Source of the DNA: Litoreibacter albidus
GTDB lineage: Bacteria > Pseudomonadota > Alphaproteobacteria > Rhodobacterales > Rhodobacteraceae
Assembly: GCF_900107015.1 (NCBI RefSeq)
Contig: NZ_FNOI01000001.1
Location: 746,501-810,500 of the forward strand
Reading direction: 5' to 3'
Length of the DNA: 64,000 bases
The notes beneath the pieces are model-generated. The model worked only from the letters and a program-made list of their open reading frames with translations. It searched no databases and was not told the DNA's origin. Positions 1 through 19,235 of this stretch are shown here, piece by piece. The first letter of the stretch is position 1; the number at the start of each line of letters is the position of its first letter. A program made the translations under genes and the position numbers.

Positions 1-439
1 GCACAACGAAGGGCAGCCCCAGCTTTTGGAGGAGCGGGATACGCGCATCATTTACCAAGGGGCCATGCACGATCACACCGTCCACGGTTCCGGTGTTGGC
101 CAACCGCTCGTAGGCGGCGGCTTCTTGGGAATCGTCGACCACGGATACCCGCATGTCATAGCCTTCACGGGCGTAAGCCTCGCCAGCGCCGGCGATAAAG
201 TCCGAAAACACCAAGTTGACCATTTCATGCTGGTTTGACAGCGGGATCACGTGCCCGATTGACATAGTGCGGCCCGTCGCTAGGCTTTTGGCGCGGGTGT
301 TTGGCTGATAGTTGTGGGCCAAGGCGGCCTCCGCGACCCTGATGCGGGTGGCTTCTTTGACCTCGGGGTAGCCGTTTAACGCGCGGCTGACCGTTGTTTG
401 GGACAGGCCGAGCAGGTCCGACAGCTCTCGTAAATTCAT
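1..439 (-). CDS. aglR: LacI-family transcriptional regulator, AglR-like (C-terminus cut by window edge)
   Basis: Only the N-terminal 146 or so residues are present; the rest lies left of the window. The start at 439 gives MNLRELSDLLGLSQTTVSRA, a typical LacI helix-turn-helix, followed by the hinge region and the start of a periplasmic-binding-protein-like sensor domain (around FSDFIAGAGEAYAREGYDMR). It is transcribed away from aglE, and a perfect 16-bp palindrome sits 22 bp upstream of its start. Divergent placement beside an alpha-glucoside ABC operon is the arrangement of AglR in rhizobia and roseobacters, so it probably represses agl and itself until an alpha-glucoside binds. The LacI family call is firm; the AglR name rests on context. 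Confidence 0.85.
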   Translation of the reverse strand, partial: MNLRELSDLLGLSQTTVSRALNGYPEVKEATRIRVAEAALAHNYQPNTRAKSLATGRTMSIGHVIPLSNQHEMVNLVFSDFIAGAGEAYAREGYDMRVSVVDDSQEAAAYERLANTGTVDGVIVHGPLVNDARIPLLQKLGLPFVV

Positions 440-10265: not shown

Positions 10266-11828
10266 CTATGGCGGCAGGTGAATGGTGAACCGCGCGCGGA
10301 TGGCGCTGTCCAATGCAGGGTTAAACGCAGCTGACGACGGAGCGGCAAGAAGCTCCAGCTTGCGGGCCGTGGCTTTCTGCAACAGGTCGGGCTTGTCCTT
10401 TTCCGCCCATTCTTTCGGGGACATCCGGTCACCTAGAGTGGGGTACACGTAGTCACTTTCCATGCGCGTCAGGGTTTGCGCGGCACCCAGATAGTGACCG
10501 ACGCCGGCCTTATCGCCGTCACCCAGACAGGTGGTGCGCATCACATCAAGCGCCAGCGTTTCCTCCGTCACCTCAATACCGCGCACGCAGCGCAAAGCCT
10601 GCCCGATCAGGTCGTCGCCCAAGATCAGGCTTTCGTGGCAAAAGCCCAGCAGGGAGGCATGCATGCCCGCTGCCTCGTAAACCATGTTGAGGCCGGAAAG
10701 ACCTGCCATCACATTAGAGCACATCTGCTCCCATCCGGCTTGCATGTCGGGCAGTTTGGCGTCGGACGCACCCGCGGCCGCGCCGCCGGGTATGCCGTAG
10801 AAATGGTGCATCTGGGCGCAGCCTGCCGTGAGCAATGCCTGCTCGCCTGAGCCCACCGACATAGCACCCGTACGCAGGTCTAATCCGAATGGCCATGTCC
10901 CAAAGATGGCGGGATGGCCGGGCTTGATGGCGTTCACATAGACCACCCCTGCAAGACACTCCGCCACGGCCTGCACAATTGCGCCCGCGATGGGCGATGG
11001 CGCGGTAGCGCCCGCCATGCCAGCCGACAGCAGAAGCACAGGCATGCCGCCCTCTATGCAGGCCTCCATGACGCGGCAGGCGTCTGTGGCAAATTTCATG
11101 GGAGGGACCACAAAGCAGTTGGTGTTGGACACGAAAGGCCGTGCGCGCCACGTGTCCTCATCTCCGGCGATCATATGGAGCATCTCTAACGCGCCCGCGA
11201 CGTAGTCAGCCTCCGTAAAGGACACACCGATGTGCTTGGTCGTGCCGCGCGTGCAGGCATAAACGGTGTTCAGGTCCATCTCGTAGTTGTCGGCGATGTC
11301 GCGGCAGACCATCGGGCGTTGCAAGAAGTGCAGGTTGTCCAGTTGGTCGGTGATGCGGGCGGCGTCATAGAGGTCCTGCACCGTGCTTTCGCGGTAGTTG
11401 CGCCCCTCGACGTCGACCATGTGCACGGCCGCACCCGCAGTGCCGTAATGCACCTTCGTCCCCTGAAGATGCAGGTCGTTTCCGGGATCGCGGCCGCACA
11501 ATGTGACGTCCTTGCAGGCGACGGCCAGCATGTCTTCCACCAGCGCGCGCGGGAAGCGTATGCGGCCATCCTCCCCTAGGATCGCGCCTGCGCGGGTCAG
11601 GATCTCGATGCCACTTGGCGGCGCGTCGGCGAGACCTATGTGTTCCAGCGCAGTCAGCGCGGCTTCGTGGATGTTGGCAATGTCGAGGTCGCTTAAGACG
11701 CGCAATTGGCCGCCGCGCAAACCGGCATGTACGGGGCGTTTGTCGGTGGCAAGCGGGGCGGCACGCAACGCACGGCGCGCGGCGCGACCGCCAGAACGGC
11801 GGGGCGAGGAAGGCGATTGATCTGTCAT
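10266..11828 (-). CDS. MttB-family (trimethylamine methyltransferase-like) corrinoid methyltransferase, non-pyrrolysine type
   Basis: 520 residues, full length for the MttB/COG5598 family, which transfers a methyl group from a methylated (often quaternary) amine to a corrinoid protein. The body carries family features such as CTRGTTKHIGVSF, GATAPSPIAGAIVQAVAE and GIPGGAAAGASDAKLPD. There is no in-frame TAG inside the gene; TAG occurs only as the terminal stop, so it is a pyrrolysine-free member like the glycine betaine enzyme MtgB. The N-terminal 40 residues are Arg/Ser/Gly-rich (SPRRSGGRAARRALRAAP) and look disordered. Substrate unknown. No corrinoid protein gene lies beside it; possible partners are the C1 genes at 32.5-38.3 kb. 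Confidence 0.88.
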   Translation of the reverse strand: MTDQSPSSPRRSGGRAARRALRAAPLATDKRPVHAGLRGGQLRVLSDLDIANIHEAALTALEHIGLADAPPSGIEILTRAGAILGEDGRIRFPRALVEDMLAVACKDVTLCGRDPGNDLHLQGTKVHYGTAGAAVHMVDVEGRNYRESTVQDLYDAARITDQLDNLHFLQRPMVCRDIADNYEMDLNTVYACTRGTTKHIGVSFTEADYVAGALEMLHMIAGDEDTWRARPFVSNTNCFVVPPMKFATDACRVMEACIEGGMPVLLLSAGMAGATAPSPIAGAIVQAVAECLAGVVYVNAIKPGHPAIFGTWPFGLDLRTGAMSVGSGEQALLTAGCAQMHHFYGIPGGAAAGASDAKLPDMQAGWEQMCSNVMAGLSGLNMVYEAAGMHASLLGFCHESLILGDDLIGQALRCVRGIEVTEETLALDVMRTTCLGDGDKAGVGHYLGAAQTLTRMESDYVYPTLGDRMSPKEWAEKDKPDLLQKATARKLELLAAPSSAAFNPALDSAIRARFTIHLPP

Positions 11829-11969
11829 GTGAGGGACTTTCGCGAAGATGTCAGGGCAAGGTTTGCGGCTCAAACCTGCCTTGGACGCCCCCGTGCAGCG
11901 CGGCCCCTGCGGGCCCCGATGGTGCGGGCCACAAGAACTGTCTTGTATCCGTACTTCTGCATCACACTC

Positions 11970-12000
11970 CTCCGTGGGGCCAGTTTTGGGCCCCACGGAG
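11970..12000. repeat. 12-bp inverted repeat between the TPM gene and the MttB-family gene
   Basis: CTCCGTGGGGCC (11970-11981), 7-nt loop, GGCCCCACGGAG (11989-12000): a perfect stem downstream of the minus-strand TPM gene and 142 bp upstream of the MttB-type gene. No T-run follows on either strand, so it is not a classical terminator; it may be a Rho-assisted terminator or a leader structure of the methyltransferase mRNA. The remainder of 11829-12051 shows nothing else recognisable. Confidence 0.55.
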
Positions 12001-14046: not shown

Positions 14047-15215
14047 GGGCGAATCTCCTTGGCAAAATCTACAAGCGTTTGCAGGGTGACCTCAAACGCG
14101 CTGTCCTCCACCGTCATTGCAACGCGCACGTGGCCCGCCGCAGATGCGCCGAAGCTTTCGCCGGGCATCACCGCGATATGGTGCGCCTCAAGCAGTTTGT
14201 CCGCGAAGTCGTCACCGCTAAGACCTGTGGCGCGTATGTCCAGCATCATATACATCGCGCCCGACGATGGCACCAAGCCGACCACGTTTTGTTTGGCCAG
14301 TATGGCTTGTCCCAAGGCCCGCCTGCGCCGGAACGGTGCGCCGACCTTCTCCTCCAGCGCCAGACCTTGCGCCAAGGCAAAGGTGGCGGCGTCCTGAATG
14401 TAGCCCGGAACCCCGTATGTGGTGTGTGTCGCGAGGTTGATCAGGTGCTCAATCGCCTCTGTCGGCCCCGCAATCCAGCCGACGCGGCTGCCAGTCATGG
14501 CGTGGCTTTTTGACATGGAGCCGATGACCAAGGTGCGCGCTTCCATGCCGTCGATGGTGCGCGGGCTGATATGTGTGCCATCCCAAATCTGGGTGTCGTA
14601 CACCTCGTCTGAAATGCACCACAGGTCGTACTCTTGGCAGGCGCGGGCGATGCCTTCCACGGTGTCGCGGGAGTAGACAACGCCCGTGGGGTTGTTAGGC
14701 GTGTTGACCAGCAGCGATTTCGCACCGTCCGCCTTGGCGGCGATGTCGTCGTAGCTGGGCTGGAACGCGTTTTCCGGCAGGCAGGCGATGGAGCGCGGGA
14801 CCGCGCCGACACCGCGCAGGGTGCCGGGGTAGGTGGCGTAGTAGGGATCGCAGTAAAGTGCCACATCGCCCTCGTCGCAGACCGCATGATGCGACGCGAA
14901 CAGCGCCGATTGCCCGCCGGGGGTGATCAATACGTTGTCGCGGCTGGTTGGCACGCCGGTGCGCGCGGTCAGGCGGGCGGCGACAGCATCGCGCAACGCA
15001 TCGGTGCCCGGAACCATCGCATAGCCGGTGTGCCCGTTGCTGGCGGAGCGGTGCATGGCGTCCAGAATGCTTTGGTCCGTGCTGATGTCATGCTCGCCGA
15101 TGGTCAGCTCTGTCACCGCTTGGCCTGCGTCGATCATACCGCGGGCCTTGATGAACAAGTCCCATCCATCCGATCCGCCACCCGTCAAACCTGTTATCCG
15201 CTTCGACAATTTCAT
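14043..15215 (-). CDS. PLP-dependent aminotransferase (class I/II)
   Basis: 390 residues of the aspartate-aminotransferase fold. NTPNNPTGVVYSRDTVEGIA is the cofactor-binding Asn region, and SMSKSHAMTGSRVGWIAGP contains the PLP lysine and the phosphate-binding arginine. The start at 15215 (MKLSKRITGLTGGGSDGWDL) is preceded by GAGGAG; the upstream in-frame ATG is less likely. Translationally coupled to the PEP-mutase-like gene. Substrate not determinable. Confidence 0.88.
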   Translation of the reverse strand: MKLSKRITGLTGGGSDGWDLFIKARGMIDAGQAVTELTIGEHDISTDQSILDAMHRSASNGHTGYAMVPGTDALRDAVAARLTARTGVPTSRDNVLITPGGQSALFASHHAVCDEGDVALYCDPYYATYPGTLRGVGAVPRSIACLPENAFQPSYDDIAAKADGAKSLLVNTPNNPTGVVYSRDTVEGIARACQEYDLWCISDEVYDTQIWDGTHISPRTIDGMEARTLVIGSMSKSHAMTGSRVGWIAGPTEAIEHLINLATHTTYGVPGYIQDAATFALAQGLALEEKVGAPFRRRRALGQAILAKQNVVGLVPSSGAMYMMLDIRATGLSGDDFADKLLEAHHIAVMPGESFGASAAGHVRVAMTVEDSAFEVTLQTLVDFAKEIRP

Positions 15216-15323
15216 GCATCGCTCCTCATTGATATTGGGGCGAAGAGGGAATGGCAAAGCCCGCCCTTGTCAAATCGAATCTTGTGATGGTCACCATCGC
15301 TGACCTAAATCCACGCTCGACCA

Positions 15324-15455
15324 ACCCGCCTGCGCCTGCTAACGAGGGGCCATGACGACACGCACCATCATTATTTGTTGCTGCATTACCATCTGAGAAG
15401 TCTCAGGCGGGTCGTTTTGCGTTTTCCAATCTAGGTCAGTTTCGCTAAACCCGCC
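15324..15455 (+). promoter_or_regulatory. Putative cysteine attenuator in the cysS 5' leader
   Basis: Three segments of the leader can pair in exclusive ways: A = ACCCGCCTG (15324-15332), B = CAGGCGGGT (15404-15412) and C = ACCCGCC (15449-15455). A-B gives 9 pairs and B-C 7 pairs. B also overlaps a local hairpin CTGAG-aagt-CTCAG (15393-15406), which contains the leader-peptide stop codon and is followed after 6 nt by TTTTGCGTTTT. A 14-codon ORF with three consecutive Cys codons lies between A and B. This is the layout of amino-acid attenuators. Whether termination or translation initiation is switched cannot be read from the sequence. Confidence 0.6.
15352..15396 (+). CDS. Cysteine-codon leader peptide of cysS (MTTRTIIICCCITI)
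   Basis: A 14-residue ORF with an excellent ribosome binding site (GAGGGG at 15345-15350, close to the ATG). It encodes three isoleucines followed by three consecutive cysteines (TGT TGC TGC at 15376-15384) and ends 83 nt before cysS, the cysteinyl-tRNA synthetase gene. Cysteine is rare, so a Cys-Cys-Cys run in a 14-codon peptide directly ahead of cysS is unlikely to be chance. The ribosome would stall here when charged tRNA-Cys is scarce, altering pairing of the downstream segment at 15404-15412. Too short for normal gene finders. Confidence 0.7.
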   Translation: MTTRTIIICCCITI

Positions 15456-15479
15456 GCAACACCTGCGCGCGAGGGCGAT

Positions 15480-16880
15480 ATGACGATCAAGCTGTACAAC
15501 ACCAAGACCCGCAAGAAAGAGGTCTTCGAGCCAATCAATCCGGGCCACGCCAGCATGTATGTCTGCGGCCCCACGGTCTATGAGCGCGCGCACCTCGGCA
15601 ACGCCCGCCCCGTGCTGGTGTTCGATATTCTGTACCGTCTGCTGCGTCACGAATACGGGGCAGAGAATGTGAAATATGTGCGCAATTTCACCGATGTGGA
15701 CGACAAGATCAACGCCCGTGCGGCCCAAACGGGGCGGCCCATCTCGGAGATCACCGACGAGACAATCGGCTGGTTCCTGGATGACATGGGGGCCTTGGGT
15801 GCGCTGCCACCGACCGACGCCCCCCGCGCCACGGCCTACATCGGCCAGATGATTGCGATGATAGAAGACTTGATCGCCAAGGATCACGCCTACGCGGCGG
15901 AGGGTCATGTGCTCTTCAAGGTGCGCAGCTACACCGACTACGGCGCGCTCTCCGGCCGCTCCGTCGATGATATGATCGCAGGCGCTCGGGTGGAGGTGGC
16001 CCCCTACAAAGAAGACCCGATGGACTTCGTGCTATGGAAGCCGTCGTCTGATGATCTGCCGGGTTGGGATAGCCCGTGGGGCAAGGGGCGTCCGGGCTGG
16101 CACATCGAATGCTCCGCCATGGCGTATGAGCTTCTGGGCAGCGCGTTCGACATCCACGGCGGCGGCAACGACCTGACGTTCCCGCACCACGAGAACGAGA
16201 TCGCCCAGTCGAAATGCGCGGGCCACGACTTTGCCAACGTCTGGATGCACAACGAGATGCTACAGGTGGAAGGCAAGAAGATGTCCAAATCCTTGGGCAA
16301 CTTTTTCACCGTACGCGACCTGCTGGACCAAGGCGTCCCGGGTGAGGTGATCCGGTTTGTGGTGCTGAGCACGCATTACCGCAAGCCGATGGACTGGACA
16401 GAGAAGAAGCGGGAGGAGGCGGAGAAGACGCTAAGGAAGTGGCGTGAGCTGACCGATGGCGTAACTCCCGCATCCGAACCTTTGAGCCAAGTTCTTGACC
16501 CGCTGCGTGACGATTTAAATACCCATGGCGCGATCGCGGAGTTGCAACAACTCGCGCTGGCTGGCGATGCGCCAAACCTACTGGCGTCTGCTCATGCTTT
16601 GGGCTTCCTGACGAACGAGATGGGAGCTTGGGCGGAGACAGGACCGGCTGATGGTGCTGATGTTTCCAGATTGCATGATATCGCTCGCTGGTTTGCAGCT
16701 GCACGTAAGAAGGCGATGGAAACCAAGGACTTCTCGACTATAGATGACTACAAGGCGCAACTTTCTGCCGCAGGCATTGACGTGAAGATGTCTAAAGATG
16801 GGGTAGATCTTGAACCAAATGCGAAGTTTGACAGCGGCCTTCTGTGGAAGATTGAGCGCGATGTGGAGGCCGAGCTTTGA
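15480..16880 (+). CDS. cysS: Cysteinyl-tRNA synthetase
   Basis: 466 residues, normal length. It charges tRNA-Cys in the cytoplasm. The zinc cysteine lies in MYVCGPTVY (about residue 24) with further ligands in the [12 protein letters not shown] / HHENEIAQS region; the HIGH-type motif is AHLGNAR and the KMSKS loop is [15 protein letters not shown] precedes the ATG. A cysteine-rich leader ORF and alternative RNA pairings lie upstream. Its TGA overlaps the TTG start of cimA, so the two are co-translated, linking Cys-tRNA supply and branched-chain amino acid synthesis in one transcript. Confidence 0.96.
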
Positions 16881-18493
16881 CCCGCGAACGCCTCACCCTG
16901 TTCGACACGACCCTCCGCGACGGGCAGCAGACGCAGGGCGTACAGTTCTCGACGCCTGAAAAGGTTGAGATCGCCCAGATGCTCGACGGCATCGGCATTG
17001 ACTATATCGAGGGCGGTTGGCCCGGTGCGAACCCCACGGACAGCGAGTTTTTCTCAAACGTCCCAAGAACTTCCGCGACGATGACCGCCTTCGGGATGAC
17101 CAAGCGGGCGGGGCGCTCGGCTGAGAATGATGATGTGCTCGCCGCCGTTCTAAACGCCAACACGCCTGCGGTCTGCCTTGTGGGCAAGACGCATGACTTC
17201 CACGTTGAAACGGCGCTTGGCATCTCTCTCGAAGAGAACCTTGAAAACATTGAGAAAAGTTTTCAGCACATCGCCGCGCAAAACCGCGAGACGCTCTTTG
17301 ATGCGGAGCATTTTTTCGACGGCTACAAATCCAACCCCGACTACGCGCTGTCCTGCATTCATGCGGCTTACGGCGCGGGGGCGTTGATCGTTTTGTGCGA
17401 CACCAACGGCGGCACACTTCCGGCGGAAATATCTGAAATTGTTGGTAAAGTCATCGACAGCGGCATCCCCGGTGCACGTCTGGGCATCCATACCCACAAC
17501 GACACGGAAAACGCGGTGGCGGGATCACTGGCGGCGGTGGACGCAGGTGTGCGCCACATCCAAGGAACTCTGAACGGGCTGGGGGAGCGGTGTGGCAACG
17601 CCAACCTTACCTCGATCATCCCGACGCTGCTGCTAAAAGAGCCTTACAAATCGCGCTACGCCATTGGGGTGAAACAGGAAAACCTGACGCGCCTGACTTA
17701 CGCATCGCGCAAACTGGACGATATCCTGAACCGTGTCCCGAACAAGCACGCCGCCTACGTCGGGGTGTCGGCTTTCGCGCATAAGGCGGGGCTGCATGCC
17801 TCTGCGATCCTGAAGGATCCAACCACCTACGAACACATCGATCCCGCAATCGTCGGCAACACCCGCATCATCCCGATGAGCAATCAGGCGGGACAGTCCA
17901 ACCTGCGAAAACGTCTTGCCGAAATGGGATTGAAAGACATTGATAGCAATGCCTTACCGCGCATACTTGATGTGATTAAGCAGCGCGAAGACGACGGCTA
18001 TTCCTACGACACCGCGCAAGCCTCTTTCGAACTTCTGGCGCGGCGTGAGTTGGGGCTCTTGCCCAAGTATTTCGAGGTGAAGCGCTACAAAGTCACCGTG
18101 GAGCGGCGCAAAAACAAATACGACAAGATGATCAGCCTTTCGGAGGCGGTCGTTGTGGTGAAAGTCGGCGAGGACAAGATGCTCTCCGTCTCGGAAAGCC
18201 TTGATGAAACCGGCTCGGACCGTGGTCCGGTGAACGCACTGTCAAAAGCGCTTGCCAAGGATTTGGGGCCGTATTCGGCGCTGATCGAGGACATGCGGCT
18301 GGTTGACTTCAAAGTGCGTATCACTCAAGGCGGCACCGAGGCCGTGACCCGCGTGATCATCGACAGCGCCGACAAACAGGGGCGCAGGTGGTCCACCGTG
18401 GGTGTGTCCCCAAACATCGTAGATGCCTCCTTCGAGGCATTGCTGGACGCGATCAACTGGAAGCTTGTGCAAGAGGGCGCCAATGTCACTTGA
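16877..18493 (+). CDS. cimA: (R)-citramalate synthase
   Basis: 538 residues, of the CimA rather than LeuA type by length and sequence. It condenses pyruvate and acetyl-CoA to citramalate for threonine-independent isoleucine synthesis. [20 protein letters not shown] is the metal/active-site start of the HMGL-like barrel, [14 protein letters not shown] supplies the second metal ligands, and a C-terminal LeuA-type allosteric domain follows (about 400-538). The start codon is TTG inside the cysS stop (TTTGACC). The 3' end overlaps the next gene by 11 bp. Confidence 0.93.
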
Positions 18494-19235
18494 GGCGTGC
18501 CGCGCCTTGGTGGAACGCGCTGATCCTGACAGGTTTGTCGCTGCGCAACTGGGCACCGAGGCCGCCCAGCAGGTGCTCTGGCCGCTTTATGCGATGAACA
18601 TAGAGGTCAGCCGCGCGCCGTGGGTGACGCAAGAACCGATGATCGCGGAGATGCGCCTGCAGTGGTGGCGCGACGCGCTGGAGGAGATTGCGCAAGGCAA
18701 ACCCGTGCGCGCGCATGAAGTCACGACGGCCCTTGCCAGCGCAATCGGTGCGCCGGAGGCCACGGATTTGGACCGACTGGTTCAAGCGCGCCGCTGGGAC
18801 ATCTACAAAGACGCTTTTGAGGATGAGGCAGATTTGCTGTCCTACCTGGACGACACGGCAGCGCTGCTGATGTGGGCCGGTGCGGCGGCGCTTGGCGCGC
18901 CTTCCACTGTGCGGGCGGATGTGATCCGCTATGGCCGTGCATGTGGTTTGGTGCGCTTCCTACAGGCCGCACCGGAGCTGGAGTCCCGTGGCCGCCGCCC
19001 GCTGGTTGATGGACGCCCGCACGCCATCAAGGAGTTGTGCGCGCGTGTCTTGGCAGAAATGCCGTCGCGGGGGGCTTTGAAGCGGCAACTGGGTACGGAC
19101 GCAGCCTGCGTCCTCACAGAAGGCTGGCAAACGCGTGCATTGCTCAAGCAAGTGATCGCCAACCCGACACGCGTGGCGGACGGCGCATTGGGCCTAAGCG
19201 AGTTTGGCAAACGCTGGCGGTTACTGCTGGCTTAG
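18483..19235 (+). CDS. Squalene/phytoene synthase-family protein, NDUFAF6-like
   Basis: 250 residues with the isoprenoid-synthase fold pattern (QVLWPLYAMNIEVSRAPWVT, MRLQWWRDALEEI, DEADLLSYLDDTAALLMWAG). The two Asp-rich diphosphate-binding motifs of true squalene/phytoene synthases are not seen. This matches the short alphaproteobacterial relatives of mitochondrial NDUFAF6, a complex I assembly factor, so a non-catalytic assembly role is more likely than terpene synthesis. The start at 18483 was chosen because it overlaps cimA and begins the conserved region. Ends convergent with the MFS gene, 4 bp overlap. Confidence 0.75.
   Translation: MSLEACRALVERADPDRFVAAQLGTEAAQQVLWPLYAMNIEVSRAPWVTQEPMIAEMRLQWWRDALEEIAQGKPVRAHEVTTALASAIGAPEATDLDRLVQARRWDIYKDAFEDEADLLSYLDDTAALLMWAGAAALGAPSTVRADVIRYGRACGLVRFLQAAPELESRGRRPLVDGRPHAIKELCARVLAEMPSRGALKRQLGTDAACVLTEGWQTRALLKQVIANPTRVADGALGLSEFGKRWRLLLA

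Follow-up and report, generated by a model that had tools for sequence, protein, structure and literature searches.

Upstream of cysS in Litoreibacter albidus lies a short open reading frame with three Cys codons in a row, and the locus raises the question of whether this ORF controls the genes behind it, by what means, and in answer to which amino acid. The window analysed here, i.e. a stretch of 64,000 nucleotides of contig NZ_FNOI01000001.1, had previously been read from its letters alone as holding a candidate cysteine attenuator. Comparison with relatives indicates that the cysS-cimA operon is likely to be preceded by a ribosome-dependent attenuator, identical with the published motif uORFC-8-2, whose leader ORF is probably leaderless; the element would sense Cys-tRNA and possibly Ile-tRNA too.

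The leader ORF and the genes behind it

15352-15396, + strand: leader ORF MTTRTIIICCCITI-stop, 14 codons as read in the window; predicted to be leaderless, with +1 at the A of the ATG
15376-15384, + strand: three Cys codons, -6 to -4 counting back from the stop (across the family, Cys is commonest at -5 and -4)
15480-16880, + strand: cysS, cysteine--tRNA ligase (TIGR00435, 418 bits, cut-off 340)
16877-18493, + strand: cimA, citramalate synthase, isoleucine biosynthesis (TIGR00977, 575 bits, cut-off 450)

The start of cimA overlaps the end of cysS, and both genes score above their NCBIfam cut-offs. A squalene/phytoene-synthase-like ORF (18483-19235, + strand) overlaps the end of cimA in turn, its HpnD match lying far under the cut-off. 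The leader region gave no Rfam match at gathering scores, to a T-box or to any other leader. The only Rfam matches in the window are one tRNA and PYLIS_3, both away from the leader. PYLIS_3 (pyrrolysine insertion, mttB) was matched at 10670-10769 (- strand) with a score of 45.2 against a gathering score of 38, and it falls inside the ORF at 10266-11996 (- strand), an uninterrupted frame of 576 amino acids that is perhaps an MttB-family gene without pyrrolysine.

Judged by comparison of relatives, the 14-codon leader ORF is real and conserved. The sample comprised 80 named cysS loci, 100 further loci of the family (one per genome; the best 100 by E-value after the window, which lean to closer CysS relatives) and the window itself, giving 181 loci, nearly all from Rhodobacteraceae, of which 175 remained after six duplicates were dropped. 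The ORF with its three Cys codons is present in the window as first read, and a uORF with at least two Cys codons was found upstream of cysS in at least 137 of the 175 loci, its start lying a median of 134 nt before cysS (5-95% range 123-164 nt, n=137). The class was CC in 107 loci, CxC in 12, two separate Cys codons in 18 and one Cys in 6; the script found no uORF in the other 32, at least three of which (L012, L125 and L145) carry a CC uORF, those of L125 and L145 having been translated by eye. The script demanded CGGG or GCGG within 28 nt after the stop and preferred about 13-14 codons and Cys patterns, so the presence of the downstream segment B in uORF loci is partly selected; the promoter played no part in choosing uORFs.

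Short ORFs rich in both Cys and Ile occur in 126 of the 175 upstream regions, as against a mean of 0.2 in 30 Markov-1 simulations. A covariance model, R1, was built from 65 family sequences (alignment A1, i.e. 65 of the first 75 of the 97 leaders retained for structural comparison below, ten having been removed by hand for long insertions or N). R1 matched 254 of 292 genomes sampled across the order, in 104 of 112 genera, the listed genomes all belonging to the window's family; these matches are not independent evidence, since the model was itself built from family members. A chance ORF accompanied by chance repeats would fit the accidental look of one pairing first proposed here (A:B, below), but it would have to yield both the 126 Cys+Ile-rich regions where 0.2 are expected and the breadth of the R1 matches, and it deserves hardly any credence. 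The window's own genome holds six R1 matches at E <= 10, a single one of them strong (82.6 bits); the second-best (E 0.057) was rejected, as by eye it falls in an apparent groES-groEL gap with no such ORF.

The cysteine part of the element proved to be published already, although the sequence-only reading had known of no description in Rhodobacteraceae. According to the text of PMC8632094 (RNA Biol 2021), the motif uORFC-8-2 has 145 examples exclusively upstream of cysS in Rhodobacterales, and ribosome-mediated attenuation by the Cys codons is proposed for it, Cys alone serving to explain the motif. It is described there as a uORF that starts with AUG and has a tandem pair of Cys codons, for the most part at positions 14-15, together with two stems, the first holding the Cys codons, then a U run. 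The present element likewise lies upstream of cysS, most named relatives bearing Rhodobacteraceae names, and likewise has tandem Cys codons (the CC run of 107 of 175 loci, CCC in the window). Numbered from the start, its Cys codons stand mostly at 9-11 (family maximum 9-10, window 9-11) rather than at 14-15, a mismatch that is probably a difference of numbering or start, because locus, order and codons agree. The main text of PMC8632094, figures and supplement aside, makes no mention of leaderless starts, isoleucine, cimA or citramalate. In the literature searched, no second published account of uORFC-8-2 or of cysS leader attenuation was found, and no title among the best-matching papers concerned a Cys+Ile leader or the regulation of a cysS-cimA operon. 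The Ile codons and the likely absence of a 5' leader are undescribed in the literature found, and the analysis corrects and extends the published motif.

Predicted promoters and the start of the leader transcript

15317-15322, + strand: predicted P1 -35 element, TCGACC (family consensus near TTGACC/TTGGCC)
15337-15345, + strand: predicted P1 extended -10 element, TG-C-TAACGA (hexamer 15340-15345; spacer 15323-15339, 17 nt)
15423-15451, + strand: predicted second promoter P2, TTTCCA (15423-15428)-N17-TAAACC (15446-15451)

When the 137 loci were aligned at the uORF ATG, T was found at -35 in 91% and at -12 in 62%, position -11 was A in 71% and position -1 was C in 84%, and the pattern TTG-N15-19-xTA occurred upstream of the uORF in 111 of the 137. 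A leave-one-out promoter matrix scored above 5 at 81% of the 137 uORF ATGs and at none of the 384 remaining ATGs in these regions, with P1 of the window scoring 10.8. The promoter is locked to the uORF start, and therefore the ATG is most likely also the 5' end of the transcript: a sigma70-like promoter would have its +1 on the A, and the leader ORF is probably leaderless. The GAGGGG (15344-15349) formerly taken for a Shine-Dalgarno sequence overlaps the P1 -10 element, and anti-Shine-Dalgarno pairing before the uORFs (-3.78 kcal/mol) is weaker than in shuffles (-4.60 kcal/mol), while that of cysS reaches -6.57 kcal/mol; the promoter register and the weak pairing together make GAGGGG an unlikely ribosome-binding site.

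Canestrari is said to have described, in 2020, leaderless polycysteine short ORFs of mycobacteria, which a leaderless start here would parallel. Both systems would share a leaderless, poly-Cys leader ORF, but the mycobacterial leaders belong to another phylum and, in the text of PMC1262725, have no conserved terminator hairpin, whereas here a stop-codon hairpin is supported. Among the Alphaproteobacteria the element would be a second example beside trpL of Sinorhizobium meliloti, whose rnTrpL RNA starts at the trpL ATG (PMC7298713); that system likewise has a 14-residue leader peptide, an RNA that begins at the ATG and ribosome-dependent attenuation, and differs in its Trp codons and in serving trpE(G).

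A second promoter-like block lies behind the leader ORF. The distance between TTTCCA and TTGCTAAGCC is constant, with a 17-nt spacer, and two positions have T in 98% (n=121). The block around segment C was anchored by the best match to a 16-base consensus, so conservation inside these 16 bases is inflated, while the upstream T's and the B:C test given below are unaffected. A looser P2 pattern was present in 78 of the 137 loci with a uORF and in 16 of the 32 classed as without one (shuffles, 2.5 and 0.7), although some of these 16 seem to hold a degenerate uORF. The -35 element of P2 is unlike the TTGAC of P1. P2 is read as a candidate basal promoter of cysS, which would supply a transcript without the attenuator. 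Conservation of segment C has two possible causes, because C overlaps the P2 -10 region; by eye, its CCCGC core has drifted in several loci without the uORF and B.

Pairings around the stop codon

15324-15332, + strand: segment A, ACCCGCCTG, in the P1 spacer and most likely untranscribed from P1
15389-15410, + strand: stop-codon hairpin (T arm:B), putative terminator stem, from the window fold and family covariation
15406-15412, + strand: segment B, GGCGGGT, within CAGGCGGGT (15404-15412), pairing with the T arm or with C
15413-15425, + strand: T-rich tract CGTTTTGCGTTTT after B, from T enrichment in the family
15449-15455, + strand: segment C, ACCCGCC, alternative 7-bp partner of B

The sequence-only reading had placed ACCCGCCTG, CAGGCGGGT and ACCCGCC correctly in the window and had proposed that B pairs either with A or with C, overlapping a hairpin that holds the stop codon. 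For comparison, 16 of the 137 loci without a clear B or C were dropped, leaving 121, and a further 24 at >=80% identity were dropped, leaving 97. Pairing of A with B was rejected: cognate pairs are no better than permuted ones (z = -0.47, n=97), the 9-bp run occurs in the window only, and A lies within the 17-nt promoter spacer. The alignment of relatives upholds the short Cys ORF and B:C, but not A:B.

Segment B has, on comparative evidence, two mutually exclusive partners. The first, the T arm, consists of the last two uORF codons (CCYGC), which pair with GCGGG of B. Duplex energies are better than those of permuted pairs (z = -9.7, n=121), all five base pairs persist, each in 75-96 of 95-97 sequences (alifold), and cognate hairpins outdo those with swapped halves (z = -11). 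The stem extends through the stop codon, the next base and its partner being Watson-Crick in 61 of 93 sequences where 30 are expected. The second partner, C, pairs with B (GGCGGGC with GCCCGCC) far better than permuted sequences do (z = -6.75, 0/5000, n=121), and two-sided changes occur in 26 cells, a count attained by 4 of 500 shuffles; this half of the original proposal stands. A control pairing of the T arm with C gave z = -2.0 (101/5000), and therefore some background relatedness is present.

The stop-codon hairpin with its T-rich stretch was found where it had been described and gains comparative support, but its 5-bp base, taken by itself, does not: although paired in 90.8% of A1 cells, with changes mostly one-sided, it is not above shuffles in A1 for pairing (89/500) or covariation (41/500). 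Folding of single full-length leaders (n=97) gave T arm:B in 51, B:C in 16 and other structures in 30. Fold energy up to B is little below that of mononucleotide shuffles (family mean z = -0.95), and the fold of the window's leader is only slightly better than shuffles (z = -1.6). At least five T's in the best 8-nt window after B were found in 55 of 97 members (background 7%), T runs there being mostly 3-4 long (76 of 97), and a strict scan of 15200-15600 returned no intrinsic terminator. Set against the two stems of uORFC-8-2, the stop-codon hairpin and T-rich tract are supported here, while a stem on the Cys codons amounts to 3 pairs (alifold).

What comparison shows is that the uORF is conserved, that the promoter keeps its register, that Cys holds fixed positions, that B has two partners and that cimA is linked; where the RNA starts, whether it terminates, the stalling of the ribosome, the activity of P2 and the sense in which expression changes are inferred. 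The most likely first nucleotide of the P1 transcript is the A of the uORF ATG. With Cys-tRNA plentiful, the ribosome would finish the leader and depart, the T arm:B hairpin containing the stop codon would form, and transcription would probably end in the T-rich tract. With Cys-tRNA scarce, the ribosome would stall on the tandem Cys codons with its leading edge over the T arm; the hairpin would then not form, RNA polymerase would read on, and B would pair with C. The footprint of a ribosome extends roughly 12 nt downstream from where its A-site codon starts. Cys is found at -5 in 107 and at -4 in 104 of the 137 leaders, and a ribosome stalled there would just cover the T arm, which would explain the fixed position. 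A weak point is that a ribosome paused on the stop would mask the hairpin too. Furthermore, since C comes only after the putative end of transcription, B:C would not form in time to act as a classical antiterminator. The cysteine attenuator as first proposed is supported by the conserved ORF, by the Cys codons held at -5/-4 and by the exclusive pairings of B, while its segment A and Shine-Dalgarno sequence are not borne out.

The position of C bears on an alternative in which control is mainly translational: the choice between T arm:B and B:C would set whether C pairs near the cysS ribosome site, so that stalling at Cys would free translation of cysS rather than its transcription. Such a switch would account for the keeping of B:C with C beyond the putative terminator, and it agrees with the lack of a terminator in the strict scan of the window. 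C also pairs better with its own Shine-Dalgarno region than with those of others (z = -3.8, 0/5000), while B with the Shine-Dalgarno region and C with the cysS start are not better than permuted. The C pairing is, by eye, short and lies beside the Shine-Dalgarno sequence rather than on it; the T-rich tract directly after the hairpin is what termination would lead one to expect, and conservation of C may partly reflect P2. Mainly translational control is, on balance, judged unlikely, and transcriptional attenuation remains the preferred reading.

Isoleucine codons, cimA and leaders of other families

The leader Ile codons outnumber the Cys codons and cimA is in the operon, a point that the sequence-only reading did not take up. 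The 137 leaders hold 523 Ile and 408 Cys codons, with at least three Ile in 120 of them, and Ile makes up 30% of leader codons as against 18% expected from the position-specific base composition of the ORFs themselves. Counted from the stop, Ile stands at -3 in 130 of the 137, at -7 in 102 and at -8 in 75. Nearly all of the Ile codons at -3 are ATT (128 of 130), while -7 and -8 carry either ATT or ATC. A Trp-leader control for Ile content, from 28 Rhodobacteraceae trpE loci, yielded no conserved Trp-run uORF; short ORFs with W.W or WW at 5 of the 28 are mutually unlike, partly in the wrong direction and by eye judged to be chance.

In all 50 named loci with a CC, CxC or two-Cys uORF and enough sequence, cimA follows cysS, five further named uORF loci ending too early to judge; in the other 25 named loci it follows in 16 and is absent there in 9. 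Eight genomes without an adjacent cimA were searched, six having no match at E <= 1e-60 and two having cimA elsewhere, and no leader-like ORF was seen by eye upstream of these two unlinked genes. The association of uORF and cimA is confounded by kinship.

Beyond the window's family, a class survey found cysS in 143 of 144 genomes, 140 of them outside the family, and 107 of these 140 were examined. A short ORF rich in Cys and Ile precedes cysS in 5 of the 107 (null mean 0.26, maximum 2 in 100); the five come from five other alphaproteobacterial families, are unlike in sequence, and all have cimA adjoining cysS. The criterion was fixed after 27 of the 107 loci, three of them qualifying, had been viewed; among the 80 loci fetched afterwards, two qualify (null mean 0.15, P 0.013). 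Whereas uORFC-8-2 is given as exclusive to Rhodobacterales in the text of PMC8632094, Cys+Ile leaders of unlike sequence thus stand before cysS in five other families. In the 107 cysS regions of other families (L233-L339), cimA adjoins cysS in 47, and therefore the linkage is not confined to Rhodobacteraceae.

When further genomes of these families were sampled with a relaxed criterion (two or more Cys, two or more Ile; counts including the first genome), the leader was found in 4 of 4 genomes of one family, ending CICCTIIIS or CICCAIIIS, in 3 of the 3 with a cysS match (of 4 genomes) in another, and in 2 of 2 in a third; a fourth family is represented by a single genome. A second cysS copy in the third family has no cimA and no leader, in a genome marked as 10% contaminated. 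Regardless of Ile, ORFs with a Cys run were found at 10 of the 107 loci (null 3.5, maximum 8), four with cimA. An ending of IIC, IIIC or III near the stop is shared by 9 of 10 leaders compared across families. A stop-spanning hairpin was not above shuffles at 10 loci of other families (sum 46 against 38.6, P 0.14; P 0.19 with one locus per family), so that an RNA structure is not established there.

These findings bear on whether the leader senses Ile as well as Cys supply and couples cysS with cimA. The Ile excess, its hold on -3, the constant company of cimA in the 50 named uORF loci and the recurrence of Cys+Ile leaders with cimA in five more families argue for such coupling. The geometry within Rhodobacteraceae argues against it: the Ile codons lie mostly before the Cys codons, where a stall would leave the T arm free, which predicts termination rather than induction. 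The near-invariant ATT at -3 further suggests that an RNA-level constraint may contribute, and kinship clouds the cimA link. With recurrence in other families for it and the Rhodobacteraceae geometry against it, the coupling is put forward tentatively, as a possibility falling somewhat short of probable.

Covering of the T arm by a stalled ribosome leaves the Ile run before Cys unexplained, and the run might instead be an AU-rich unstructured spacer or a nascent-chain feature in a switch that answers Cys alone. The fixed ATT at -3 and the placing of the Ile run fit this, and Cys only is the account given in the text of PMC8632094. Against it, -7 and -8 change between ATT and ATC yet still encode Ile, which is a codon-level pattern, and leaders of other families again have Ile close to the stop, in a different order. 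A Cys-only switch is judged nearly, though not quite, an even prospect.

The thr and ilvGMEDA leader peptides of E. coli each abound in codons for more than one amino acid; here, by contrast, a single leader would serve two genes concerned with unrelated amino acids, one for a tRNA ligase and the other biosynthetic. The fullest form of the coupling, likewise held only tentatively, is a bifunctional leader that would answer Cys-tRNA and Ile-tRNA and couple cysS to cimA in at least six alphaproteobacterial families with unlike sequences, being leaderless in Rhodobacteraceae with a second, unattenuated promoter behind it. Should the leader indeed answer to both amino acids, one short ORF would tie together two otherwise unrelated amino acid supplies within a single operon, and the lasting neighbourhood of cysS and cimA in many Alphaproteobacteria would be easier to understand.

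In a search of 385 genomes across the class, R1 had matches at E <= 0.001 in 11: five strong ones, all from the window's own family, and six weak ones. Of three weak matches inspected (L198-L200), only L198 precedes cysS; this locus (also L337), from another family, has an Ile-rich ORF, MTVFGIIIDIIISGCRLARRSSVMLT, with one Cys, before cysS-cimA.
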